Positions 1 through 19,866 of a stretch of DNA of 64,000 bases are shown here, piece by piece; position 1 is the stretch's first letter, and each line of letters begins with the position of its first letter. The position numbers and the translations under genes are program-made. Under the pieces are notes generated by a model, which made no database searches, had not been told where the DNA came from, and saw nothing but the letters and a program-made list of their open reading frames with translations. This DNA is from Hyphomonadaceae bacterium (GTDB lineage: Bacteria; Pseudomonadota; Alphaproteobacteria; Caulobacterales; Aquidulcibacteraceae), in contig JALHQO010000013.1 of NCBI GenBank assembly GCA_022841905.1, positions 12,405 through 76,404 of the forward strand, given 5' to 3'.

Positions 1-1314
1 GCGCCGGTCTTGGCCGATTGCACGCCGAAAGTGCTGATTTACGGGGCGGAGGACGCGGAAACCGCGTTTGCGCTAAAGCGCGATGGTTTGTGCTATTTGG
101 CGCTGGATTATGGAGCGCGGGCGTCCTCGCCCGCAACTTTGTCTCCACACGCCACACCGGCGCCCGTTGAAACACCGCATGCGGGCGAGGACGCCCGCGC
201 TCCATATGAGCGCGCACTCGCCGCCGCGTCTCCGCTTCGCACAGACGCGCAATGGCGCGACGATGCGGTTTGGATGCTGGTTTACACCTCCGGCACGACT
301 GGTGCGCCGAAGGGCGTGATCCAGACGATGCAGATGTCGGCGGTGAACGCGTTTCATGTTTCGCAAGCGTTCGGCGTCAACGGCGCCGACACCACGATCA
401 ACTTCCTGCCGCACTTTCACACGGCCGGCATTCAGCTCGTCACGCTGCCAACCTTGATCGCGGGCGGCACGGTGATCGTGATGCCGGCGTTCGCTGAAGC
501 GCGCGCGCTTGCCTTGATGCCGCGGCTCGATGTGTTCTTTGGCGTGCCGGCTGTGTACCAGCAGCTCGCGCTGCATCCGGCGTTTGAGCACGCCAATCTC
601 TCGCGCGTGCGCGCCTGGGGGTGTGGCGGTGCGCCGCTGGCGGATGTGTTGGTCGAGCGCTTCGCGGCGAAGGGCGTGCGCGTCTGCAATGGCTACGGCA
701 TGACCGAAACGGGCCCGACCGCGTTCGTCGCTGCGCCGGAAGATGCGCTGACCAAAATCGGCTCGGTCGGTAAACCGCAAATACTGCTCGAAGTGCGCAT
801 CGTCGACGGCAAGGGCGAAGAGGTCGCTATTGGTGAAAGCGGTGAGATCTGGATGCGCGGGCCCGGCGTCACGCCCGGCTATTGGAAGCGCTCCGAGGAG
901 ACCGCGAAAGCCATCAATGCCGAAGGTTGGTTGAAGAGCGGCGACATCGGCCGCCGCGACGCGGACGGCTGTTACTACGTCGCCGGCCGGATCAAGGAGA
1001 TGTATATTTCCGGGGCCGAGAACGTCTATCCGGCCGAGATTGAGAACGCGCTGGCGCGCCACCCAAGCGTGCTGGAAGCCGCCATTATCGGCGTGCCCGA
1101 CGAGAAATGGGGCGAGGTGGGGCATGCCTTCGTCATGCTGAGGCCGAATGCGGCGCCGATCACCGCTGCTGAGGTGATTCAGTTTTGCCGCGCCAAACTG
1201 GCTGGCTATAAAATTCCCAAACACGTCACGTTCGTCGATGAGTTCCCGCGCACGCCCGCGGGCAAGATCAGAAAACATCTGCTAGCGCCGGGGCCGATCG
1301 CGCCGTCGCGCTAA
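1..1314 (+). CDS. AMP-dependent synthetase/ligase (acyl-CoA synthetase family), 5' end outside the window
   Basis: ORF to 1314 with P-loop motif YTSGTTGAPKGV, NGYGMTETGPT, and C-terminal GRIKEMYISGAENVYPAEIE...PRTPAGKIRKH; no complete N-terminus. Confidence 0.9.
   Translation, partial: APVLADCTPKVLIYGAEDAETAFALKRDGLCYLALDYGARASSPATLSPHATPAPVETPHAGEDARAPYERALAAASPLRTDAQWRDDAVWMLVYTSGTTGAPKGVIQTMQMSAVNAFHVSQAFGVNGADTTINFLPHFHTAGIQLVTLPTLIAGGTVIVMPAFAEARALALMPRLDVFFGVPAVYQQLALHPAFEHANLSRVRAWGCGGAPLADVLVERFAAKGVRVCNGYGMTETGPTAFVAAPEDALTKIGSVGKPQILLEVRIVDGKGEEVAIGESGEIWMRGPGVTPGYWKRSEETAKAINAEGWLKSGDIGRRDADGCYYVAGRIKEMYISGAENVYPAEIENALARHPSVLEAAIIGVPDEKWGEVGHAFVMLRPNAAPITAAEVIQFCRAKLAGYKIPKHVTFVDEFPRTPAGKIRKHLLAPGPIAPSR
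109..206. repeat. Palindromic element with perfect 27-bp inverted arms (109-135 / 180-206) and 44-nt loop, inside the acyl-CoA synthetase CDS
   Basis: TATGGAGCGCGGGCGTCCTCGCCCGCA ... TGCGGGCGAGGACGCCCGCGCTCCATA; related arm at 17901-17980. Confidence 0.9.
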
Positions 1315-16180: not shown

Positions 16181-19100
16181 CTAAGCTCTTCCAAATCCGC
16201 CGCCGCCCGGCGTTTCGATCACGAAAACATCGCCCGCGCGCATTTGCGCTTTGCCTCGCGCGGGCAGGTCTTCCGTTTTGCCGTTATGGCGCTCAATGCG
16301 ATTGACGCCGCTCGCGCCGTCGCCGCCGTGGTTAAGCCCATGCGGCTTCGTTGAGCGGCGGTTGGACAAGATCGCCGCCATCATCGGTTCGCGAAAGCGC
16401 ACGCGCCTCACCGCGCCGTCGCCGCCCTTATGTGCGCCCGCGCCGCCGGAGCTGCGCCGGACACTGAACTCCTCCACCAGCACGGGAAAGCGCGTTTCCA
16501 AGACTTCGGGATCGGTCAGGCGCGAATTGGTCATGTGCGTTTGCACCGCCGAGGCGCCGTCGAAGCTGGGTCCTGCGCCCGAACCGCCGCAAATGGTCTC
16601 GTAATATTGCCGCTTGTCGTCGCCGAAGGTGAAATTGTTCATCGTGCCCTGCGACGCCGCCAACGCCCCCAGCGCGCCGTAGAGCGCATCGACCACGACT
16701 TGGCTCGTCTCCACGTTTCCAGCAACGACGGCTGCGCCACGCTTAGGATTCAGCAACGATCCTTCCGGCACGATGATCTCAATCGGCTTCAAGCAGCCTT
16801 CGTTCAATGGGATGTTGTCGTCCACCAGCGTGCGGAACACGTAGAGCGTCGCGGCGCGTGTGATCGCGAGTGGGGCGTTGAAATTGCCGCTGTCTTGCGC
16901 GCTGGTTCCGGTGAAGTCGATCTTTACCGTGCGGCTCGCATGATCCGGCGTCACCGCGACGCGGATATGCGCGCCGATATCGAGCGGCAGCTCAATTTCA
17001 CCAGGCGAGAGCTTGTCGATGACGCGTCTGATCTGCTCTTCGGCATTGTTCTGCACGTGGCGCATATAGGCAGCGACGCCCTCGCGACCGTAATGCGCGA
17101 CCAGCCGCTTCAGCTCATCGCCGCCGCGCACGACGGATGCGATCTGGGCGCGTAAATCGGCGATGTTGCGGTCGATGTCGCGCGCGGGATGCGGGCCGCT
17201 GGCGAAGAGGGCGCGCGCTTCCGCCTCCAGCATCGCGCCGTGGCGCACCAGCAACACGTTCTCGATCAACACGCCTTCTTCTTCCACGGTCTTCGAATCC
17301 GGCGGCATCGAGCCGGGCGTGATGCCGCCGATATCAGCGTGATGGCCGCGCGCGGCGGTGAAGAAGGCGGGTGTGCCGTCGCCATCGAGGATGATCGGCG
17401 CGATGACGGTAATGTCGGGCAAATGCGTGCCGCCAGCATGCGGCGCGTTCAGCATATAAATGTCGCTCGCCTGCATGCTCGCGCCGCGCTGGCGGATGAT
17501 CTCGCGCACGCTGTCGCTCATTGAGCCTAAATGCACCGGGATGTGCGGCGCGTTGGCGACGAGGCCGCCGGTTTCGTCGAACACAGCGCAGGAGAAATCG
17601 AGGCGTTCCTTGATGTTGACGGAGGAGGCAGTCGTCTGCAGCGCCAAGCCCATTTCTTCGGCCACGCCCATGAAGCGGTTGTTGAACACTTCGAGCAGGA
17701 TCGGATCGGCCTCCGTGCCGATGGCTGTGCGCTCGGCCCGCGGGCGAGCGCGCGTCAGGATGAGATCGCCCTGTTCGCTCATCCGCGCGCGCCAGTCGGG
17801 GGTGACGTAGGTGGTTGCGCCGTCTTCGATGATGAGTGCGGGTCCCTTGACGGCGTCCCCGACATTCATCGCTGTTCGCGCGAACGCCGGCATAGCTTGG
17901 TCTGGACCGCCGGCGCCCTCGCCGGCAGGCAGCGGTTCAATATCTGCGGCCGTTGCCGGCGAGGGCGCCGGCGGTCCGGATGCGATTTGAGACTGCGCCA
18001 CGGCTTCCGCCGAGAGCGTCGCCATCACGATTTTGCGGGTTGGATCGGTGAAGCCGAAGCGCCGCTGGTGTTCTGCGACGAACAGCGCGTCCAAATCTTC
18101 CGGTTGATCGAGTGAGATCGGCAGCGTTGAGTCCGCGCCCTCGTATTTCATGTGCGCCGTCAGCGTGACGGCGATGTTCTCGGCGCCTTGTGTGCGCAGC
18201 GCCTCGTAGGCGCGCTCGACCAGTTCGGTCGCCGTGCCGCCCCAGTTCCAAGTGCCTTCGATCGTGGCTTCCGCGACGGCGCGCACGTCGGCCAGGCCCA
18301 TGCCCCAAGCGCTCAGCACGCCCGCAAGCGGGTGCAACAGGATCGTGTCGATGCCCACGGCATCCGCCACTGCGCAGGCGTGTTGGCCGCCAGCGCCGCC
18401 GAACGCGACCAGCGCATAGTCGGCGGGATTGTAGCCACGCTGGATCGAGATTTTCTTGATCGCTTCGGCCATGCTCAAGTTCGCGATGGTGAGAAAGCCT
18501 TCCGCCGCTTCCTCCGGCGTGATGGCGCGACCGCTCTTGCTTTCGATCTCAGCGCAGAGCGTGGCGAATTTGTCGGCGACAATGTCTGCGTCTAAAGGCT
18601 GATCCGCATTCGGACCGAAGATCGCGGGAAAAAACTCCGGTCGCACGCGGCCGAGCAACACGTTGCAGTCCGTCACGGTCAGCGGGCCGCCGCCGCGGTA
18701 GCAGGCGGGGCCCGGATCGGCGCCGGCGCTGTGTGGGCCAACGCGCAAGCGCATGCCGTCGAAGAAGCAGATCGAGCCACCGCCGGCCGCGACCGTATGC
18801 ACGTGCAGCATCGGCGCTGACAGGCGCACGCCCGCGACCACGGTTTCGTGCGTTCGCTCGAACGCGCCGGCAAAATGCGAGACGTCGGTCGAGGTGCCGC
18901 CCATGTCGAAGCCGAGCGCGTGGGTGAAGCTGGCGCGCTGCGCCGCCGCCGCCATGCCGACAACGCCGCCGGCTGGGCCGGAGAGCACGGCGTCGCGGCC
19001 GCGGAAAGCCGACGCGCTGGTAAGGCCGCCATTGGACTGCATGAAGAGGAGGTTCGGGGCGTTTGGACCGTGTAAGCCAGCCTCGAATGCTTCCACGTAC

Positions 19101-19753
19101 GTGCGCAACACCGGCGACAAGTACGCGTCCGCCACCGTCGTATCGGCGCGCGGCACGAACTTGATCAGGCCGCTGATCTCCGAACTGATGGAGATTTGCT
19201 CAAAACCCAATTCGCGCGCGATGGCGGCGAGTCTCTGCTCGTGCGCGGGATAAGCCCAGCCGTGCAGGCAAGCGATCGCAACCGCGCGGAAGCCATCTTT
19301 ATACGCCCCCGCCAGCGCCGCACGCGCGTGCGCTTCATCCAGTGGCGTCAGCACGTCGCCTTCGGCTGTCACCCGCTCGCGCGCTTCGATGACGCGCTTA
19401 TGCAGCAAGTCGGGCTTGACGATGTGCAGCGCAAAAATGTCCGGCCGGGCTTGCACGCCGATCTCGAGCGCGTCGCCGAACCCTTGCGTCACCACGAGCA
19501 CGACATCGGCGCCTTTGCGCTCCAACAGGGCGTTGGTCGCCACAGTGGTGCCCATGCGGACTTCGCCGATGGCATCCAGGCCGGCGTTGTGCTCCGCGAG
19601 GATCAGACGGATCGCTTCGCTGGCGGCGTCTTCGTAGCGGCCGGGGTTTATCGAGAGCAGCTTGCGAACGGTTTGCCTGCCGTCCGGCGCGCGCGCGACG
19701 ACGTCGGTGAACGTGCCGCCACGATCGATCCAGAACTGCCACCCGTCGCTCAT
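16181..19753 (-). CDS. Hydantoinase/oxoprolinase family protein, fused A+B domains (5-oxoprolinase-like)
   Basis: [19 protein letters not shown]...[14 protein letters not shown]...[16 protein letters not shown]...[15 protein letters not shown]...[22 protein letters not shown]. Confidence 0.95.
17901..17980. repeat. Second member of the palindromic family: 27-bp arms (17901-17927 / 17954-17980, one mismatch), 26-nt loop, inside the oxoprolinase CDS
   Basis: TCTGGACCGCCGGCGCCCTCGCCGGCA ... TGCCGGCGAGGGCGCCGGCGGTCCGGA; left arm 22/27 identical to the 109-135 arm. Confidence 0.9.
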
Positions 19754-19866
19754 GCGGGGCGGACCATGCCAGCCGGCGCGGCGCACGCAAGTCTTAAGAG
19801 ATTGAACGCTTTGCGCCGGGGCGGCGGGCAGGCTAGTGTCGGTGAAAGACTACAGGGAGGCGGCGT

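Follow-up and report, generated by a model that had tools for sequence, protein, structure and literature searches.

The palindrome at positions 109-206 of the window (the whole stretch of 64,000 nucleotides that was analysed) is a REPIN carried in frame by an acyl-CoA synthetase gene, and the loop that it encodes is one of several protein sites that palindromic elements have occupied repeatedly within one genus. A REPIN consists of two inverted REP sequences around a short spacer, a non-autonomous unit that would be copied by a RAYT. RAYTs are REP-associated tyrosine transposases of the HUH/Y1 family. The best explanation as a whole, to which we assign a probability of about 0.88, is that a RAYT formerly present placed the REPIN in the synthetase loop and was later lost. 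On this explanation, a RAYT once present in the lineage would have put the REPIN into a surface loop of the enzyme, flanked by a strand that ends in ..LALD and a helix that begins with YE... It would have persisted there because an insert of this length leaves the reading frame intact, no frame of the arms contains a stop, and the loop can accommodate a disordered insert of ~32 residues. The RAYT would since have disappeared from this genome, leaving REPIN relics behind, and the same synthetase loop, together with loops of ThiC, a hydantoinase-like enzyme and a hypothetical protein family, would have been hit by palindromic elements more than once in the genus.

Anatomy of the element and its host gene

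The host gene occupies positions 1-1314 (+ strand), its 5' part lying beyond a scaffold gap upstream of the window, and encodes an AMP-binding acyl-CoA synthetase (AACS) that matches AMP-binding (PF00501) and AMP-binding_C (PF13193). The reading frame is open through the palindrome, which encodes DYGARASSPATLSPHATPAPVETPHAGEDARAPYER ahead of YTSGTTGAPKGV. The first-pass annotation had described a perfect 27-bp inverted repeat with a 44-nt loop in an uninterrupted frame, and this is what the coordinates give: two arms of 27 nt, 109-135 (+) and 180-206 (-), are 100% complementary and enclose a 44-nt spacer (136-179, +) that is in frame and stop-free, within a frame open from 1 to 1314. The left arm is a G-type REP made of TATGGAGC, the 7-bp hairpin GCGGGCG-TCCT-CGCCCGC and a final A, with its core at 112-134, and the right arm is its inverted copy (core 181-203). 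The 23-nt core, GGAGCGCGGGCGTCCTCGCCCGC, occurs at these two sites only in the window when up to 3 mismatches are allowed, for a chance expectation of 0.01.

Each arm has the make-up of a REP, GGA(G/C)C followed by a 7-bp hairpin, and its sequence variants preserve stem pairing. The stems GCGGGCG..CGCCCGC, GCCGGCG..CGCCGGC and GGCGGCG..CGCCGCC all still pair, as does that of the variant GGAGCGGCGGCGCCCTCGCCGCC in G033, which represents another genus of the family. As single-stranded DNA, one arm folds into 8 unpaired nucleotides followed by a 7-bp stem with a 4-nt loop (z = -3.4), giving an unpaired 5' tag followed by a palindromic hairpin core. The whole 98-mer, two inverted REPs around a short, variable spacer, folds into one long hairpin (z = -10). 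A search of the whole window against Rfam gave no match. The arms are without a stop codon in all six frames, which we do not claim as a selected feature, G+C-rich 27-mers being often stop-free by chance.

In the AlphaFold model of the host protein (mean pLDDT 83), residues 39-65 form the sole long disordered segment, the only long stretch with pLDDT below 50. Their codons (115-195, +) lie in the REPIN, and the encoded peptide sits between the strand end ..LALD and the helix start YE... The remainder of the predicted fold matches the ANL-family CoA ligases. The enzyme loop appears to tolerate the insertion, which would be neutral and leave enzyme function intact. That the element instead works within the protein, as a selected linker or as a regulatory RNA hairpin, is very unlikely. 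The frame is kept even in decayed copies, as such a role would have it, an observation equally expected if the enzyme is merely needed, but close relatives are without the element or have unrelated peptides there, and the peptide is predicted to be disordered.

A 100-N scaffold gap (contig G000:C13 around 12405; L006 1290-1389) lies immediately upstream of the first position of the window, so the left junction is at a gap, and we count this against the best explanation. The two sides of the gap have an exact 119-bp overlap in common that ends inside the left arm, probably an assembly-graph branch met at the palindrome. The element itself is real, because the palindrome is contiguous in one contig and a decayed right arm is still found there in a sister species; nor does the branch cast doubt on it, because other copies have flanks of their own. 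The overlap may reflect strain variation where the element is inserted.

A dispersed family of REPINs

The genome to which the window belongs (G000; 3.56 Mb in 27 contigs, 99.4% complete) was examined through loci. The core is present there in 7 exact copies; searched with a degenerate pattern that allowed 3 mismatches, the genome gave 33 matches, and the reversed control gave 5. About 18 related elements, mostly inverted pairs of 65-102 bp, were recognised, and up to 120 exact REPs are present in G011; the arm is thus multi-copy and dispersed, not single, which settles the copy-number check proposed with the first-pass annotation.

Two main types are found, the G-type with core GGAGCGCGGGCGTCCTCGCCCGC and TAT ends, and the C-type with core GGACCGCCGGCGYCCTCGCCGGC and mostly TCT ends. 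These ends bear on whether the elements could be MITEs of a classical DDE insertion sequence, for example of the IS630/Tc1 type with a TA duplication. G-type copies do end in TAT..ATA, but C-type copies end in TCT..AGA, hence there is no TA duplication, and the ends are part of the inverted repeat. Since, moreover, the arms are hairpins themselves and flank HUH transposases, we regard this reading as very unlikely.

A second REPIN of the window, absent from the first-pass annotation of 109-206, is a C-type element with GGACCGCCGGCGCCCTCGCCGGC arms at 17901-17980 (cores at 17904-17926, +, and 17955-17977, -). It lies in frame within an ORF on the minus strand (16181-19786) for a fused hydantoinase A/B (oxoprolinase/caprolactamase-like). 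By a codon-score heuristic, in-frame intragenic elements number 4 of 18 in this genome, 4 of 11 in G001 and 0 of 28 in G020, so that 14/18 here and 28/28 in G020 are non-intragenic. The remaining elements stand mostly at gene ends, often between convergent genes, and this mainly extragenic pattern agrees with that of REPs in general (PMC3733652).

Linkage to RAYT genes in relatives

No RAYT had been seen in the window at first pass, and none was found elsewhere in this genome: a Pfam model and a protein query returned neither a Y1_Tnp domain nor a RAYT-like protein. The same REP does flank RAYT genes in congeners and in G144, a member of another genus of the family. It lies within 120 bp of the RAYT gene at 10 of 16 congeneric (Terricaulis) loci of the subfamily, at 9 of these on both sides, and the other 6 RAYTs have no such REP nearby, which counts against the best explanation. 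G-type REPs flank the RAYTs of G014 and G144. In G001, whose synthetase is 95% identical in protein sequence to that of the species under study, the RAYT (contig C33, 1198-1740) passes the NCBIfam model NF047646 (REP_Tyr_transpos) with 89 bits, the cut-off being 80 bits, and REPs lie on either side of the matched stretch, 12 bp ahead of it and 7 bp behind it. The REP pattern was detected in 26 of 30 genomes of the genus, in 5 further genomes of the family and in 0 among the rest of the 397 genomes of the order; the near relatives with names are Hyphomonadaceae and Terricaulis MAGs. In a locus of the sister genus (L209; G033:C36), a RAYT stands amid arrayed REP variants GGAGCGGCGGCGCCCTCGCCGCC, roughly twelve in number.

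Because the genome is without a RAYT, its own REPINs look like orphaned relics. We infer transposition by a RAYT, and loss of that RAYT rather than its never having been present. The absence is counted against the best explanation, in that this genome does not show present mobility; it also means that REPINs can persist in a genome without a RAYT.

REPINs, their linkage to RAYTs and intragenic REPs are already published. The elements described here resemble the REPIN/REP-RAYT system (Bertels and Rainey 2011, PMC3116915; Bertels group 2021, PMC8049555) in having two inverted REPs with a diverse spacer, copies scattered through the genome, a Y1/HUH RAYT gene with REPs at its sides, and singlets and decayed copies. 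They differ in three respects. The tag is TATGGAGC (G-type) or TCTGGACC where classical REPs have GTAG, which places them outside the GTAG superfamily and counts against the best explanation; a RAYT is absent from their own genome; and 4 of 18 elements are in frame in proteins, a minority location in the published systems, where 14 of the 1,067 most abundant 16-mers of P. fluorescens SBW25 overlap genes (PMC3116915, PMC8049555). Our literature search found no work on REPs in Hyphomonadaceae.

The first-pass annotation had been reminded of Rickettsia palindromic elements (RPEs), selfish palindromes translated in frame in metabolic proteins (Ogata et al. 2000, 2002, reviewed in PMC10969869). The likeness holds for behaviour, as the element is multi-copy, selfish-looking and tolerated in frame, but not for type: its arms flank RAYT genes in sister species, as those of a REPIN do. 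A family of this kind, RPE-like or of the CGTC REPs, with no dedicated transposase and specialised for insertion into proteins, would account for an in-frame, low-complexity peptide in metabolic enzymes, as described for RPEs (PMC10969869, PMC3733652). However, RPE-4 and RPE-6 are CGTC REPs, which are reported without transposase association, whereas RAYT genes are flanked by the REPs studied here. Most copies are outside genes (14/18 here, 28/28 in G020), and the arms have neither a CGTC (or TGTC/CCTC) unpaired end nor the 8-9 bp stem and CCA tail of that family. We therefore consider the reading very unlikely and, on tag and transposase linkage, reject membership of the CGTC/Rickettsia type; the REPIN behaves like a Rickettsia palindromic element but is not one.

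Repeated occupation of the synthetase loop

Alignment with orthologues identified the peptide as an insertion: orthologues are without it or have other elements at the same codons. None outside the genus carries it, which bears out the earlier impression that it is foreign to the family. In G000 a G-type REPIN lies between LALD and YE. At the same place G001 has only a decayed right arm, with 3 mismatches to the REP. C-type REPINs are present in G022 and G023, a shortened one in G007 and a decayed arm in G028. The site is filled in G005 by an unrelated palindromic repeat, CTCCCCCG..CGGGGGAG, of a kind with 34 palindromes in that genome, and G018 has a possible remnant of the G005-type palindrome. 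The loop consists of a few residues in G019, G008, G024, G004, G027, G029, G020, G015, G014, G009 and G013. All REPIN-bearing AACS orthologues have the element in the same loop and the same reading frame.

Empty loops differ in length by 2-5 residues between species, and because of this variation no precise empty/filled pair fixes the boundary of the insertion, a further point against the best explanation. On the synthetase tree, the presence of a full insert requires five changes. From the sequences compared, at least two insertions at the synthetase site are certain, because two unrelated repeat families occupy it.

Reuse of sites in other genes

The same pattern recurs in other genes. In ThiC (so named from sequence motifs that were recognised rather than from a family search), one site between ENMRR and RDG contains C-type REPINs in G001 (L293) and G007 (L294), a G-type right arm in G022 (L296) and the unrelated palindrome in G005 (L295), while the loop is short in G000, G008, G017, G018, G019 and G023. 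The spacers of the ThiC elements of G001 and G007 are similar though these are not sisters, possibly through recombination of the segment. At the hydantoinase site, G000, G001 (where the insert contains a 10-N gap) and G003 have an element, and that of G012 looks decayed. A G017 hydantoinase (L228) has the insert RLPAGNAV..DAGKMPAV at this site, which may represent a third repeat family. All intragenic matches with up to 3 mismatches in the gene bodies of the synthetase, ThiC and the hydantoinase are at the one site.

A family of hypothetical paralogues (..DKPEDWR..HSAWPLAERYEAL..), for which Pfam and NCBIfam gave no name, has a REPIN at a shared site in four members, two from G000 (L009, C4:130306; L021, C1:393632) and two from G001 (L281 and L283), read in a frame other than the one used in the synthetase. 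Two orthologues among them differ in type: the G000 gene holds a G-type REPIN, the G001 gene a C-type element and, after it, CGCGCTCCATAATTTCCAC, which over 19 nt matches the G-type right end plus host sequence. In sequence terms, this leftover indicates replacement or a nested insertion.

The site reuse might alternatively descend from one ancient REPIN insertion in the ancestor of the genus, which decayed or was converted in each species. The shared loop and reading frame of all REPIN-bearing AACS orthologues are as it predicts, as are the decayed arms kept in G001 and G028, and the empty loops varying by 2-5 residues could be scars. It is nevertheless doubtful, though a serious contender: the unrelated palindrome of G005, which occupies the reused site of AACS and of ThiC alike, implies at least two insertions, one hypothetical gene has a C-type REPIN, next to a remnant of a G-type one, in the position that a G-type REPIN holds in its orthologue, and parsimony needs 5-6 changes on the AACS tree. 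Repeated insertion marks the loops of the synthetase, ThiC, the hydantoinase-like enzyme and the hypothetical family as putative recurrent, tolerated landing sites for selfish DNA, because relatives carry different elements at the same spot. A bolder and rather unlikely proposal is that particular protein loops in this lineage act as standing docks, where an element already in place would, by its hairpin or remnant, draw in other elements of its own or an unrelated family, or be overwritten by them. Were this true, the loop peptide would be repeatedly replaced in frame, and the protein would gain new linkers by element turnover.

Intragenic REP dimers are known to encode 20-30 residues inside known proteins, and the recB genes of two Xanthomonas species carry REPs at roughly matching positions (Di Nocera et al. 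2013, PMC3733652). Compared with those intragenic REPs, the elements reported here reuse the same sites in several genes and involve two unrelated palindrome families in one genus. What is new is that sites are reused in more than one gene; the open-licence literature searched gave no case in which unrelated palindromes repeatedly occupy matching codon positions in several enzymes of one genus. Across ~30 related genomes, REPINs can be followed as they enter, decay and are replaced in frame at a single codon of named enzymes, a comparative system for testing whether site reuse reflects target choice by the transposase, hairpin-on-hairpin targeting or only selection against insertions elsewhere.

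A second palindromic family, CTCCCCCGCNNGCGGGGGAG (L045, L295), reaches up to 60 copies per genome in the genus and is also found in frame in genes.
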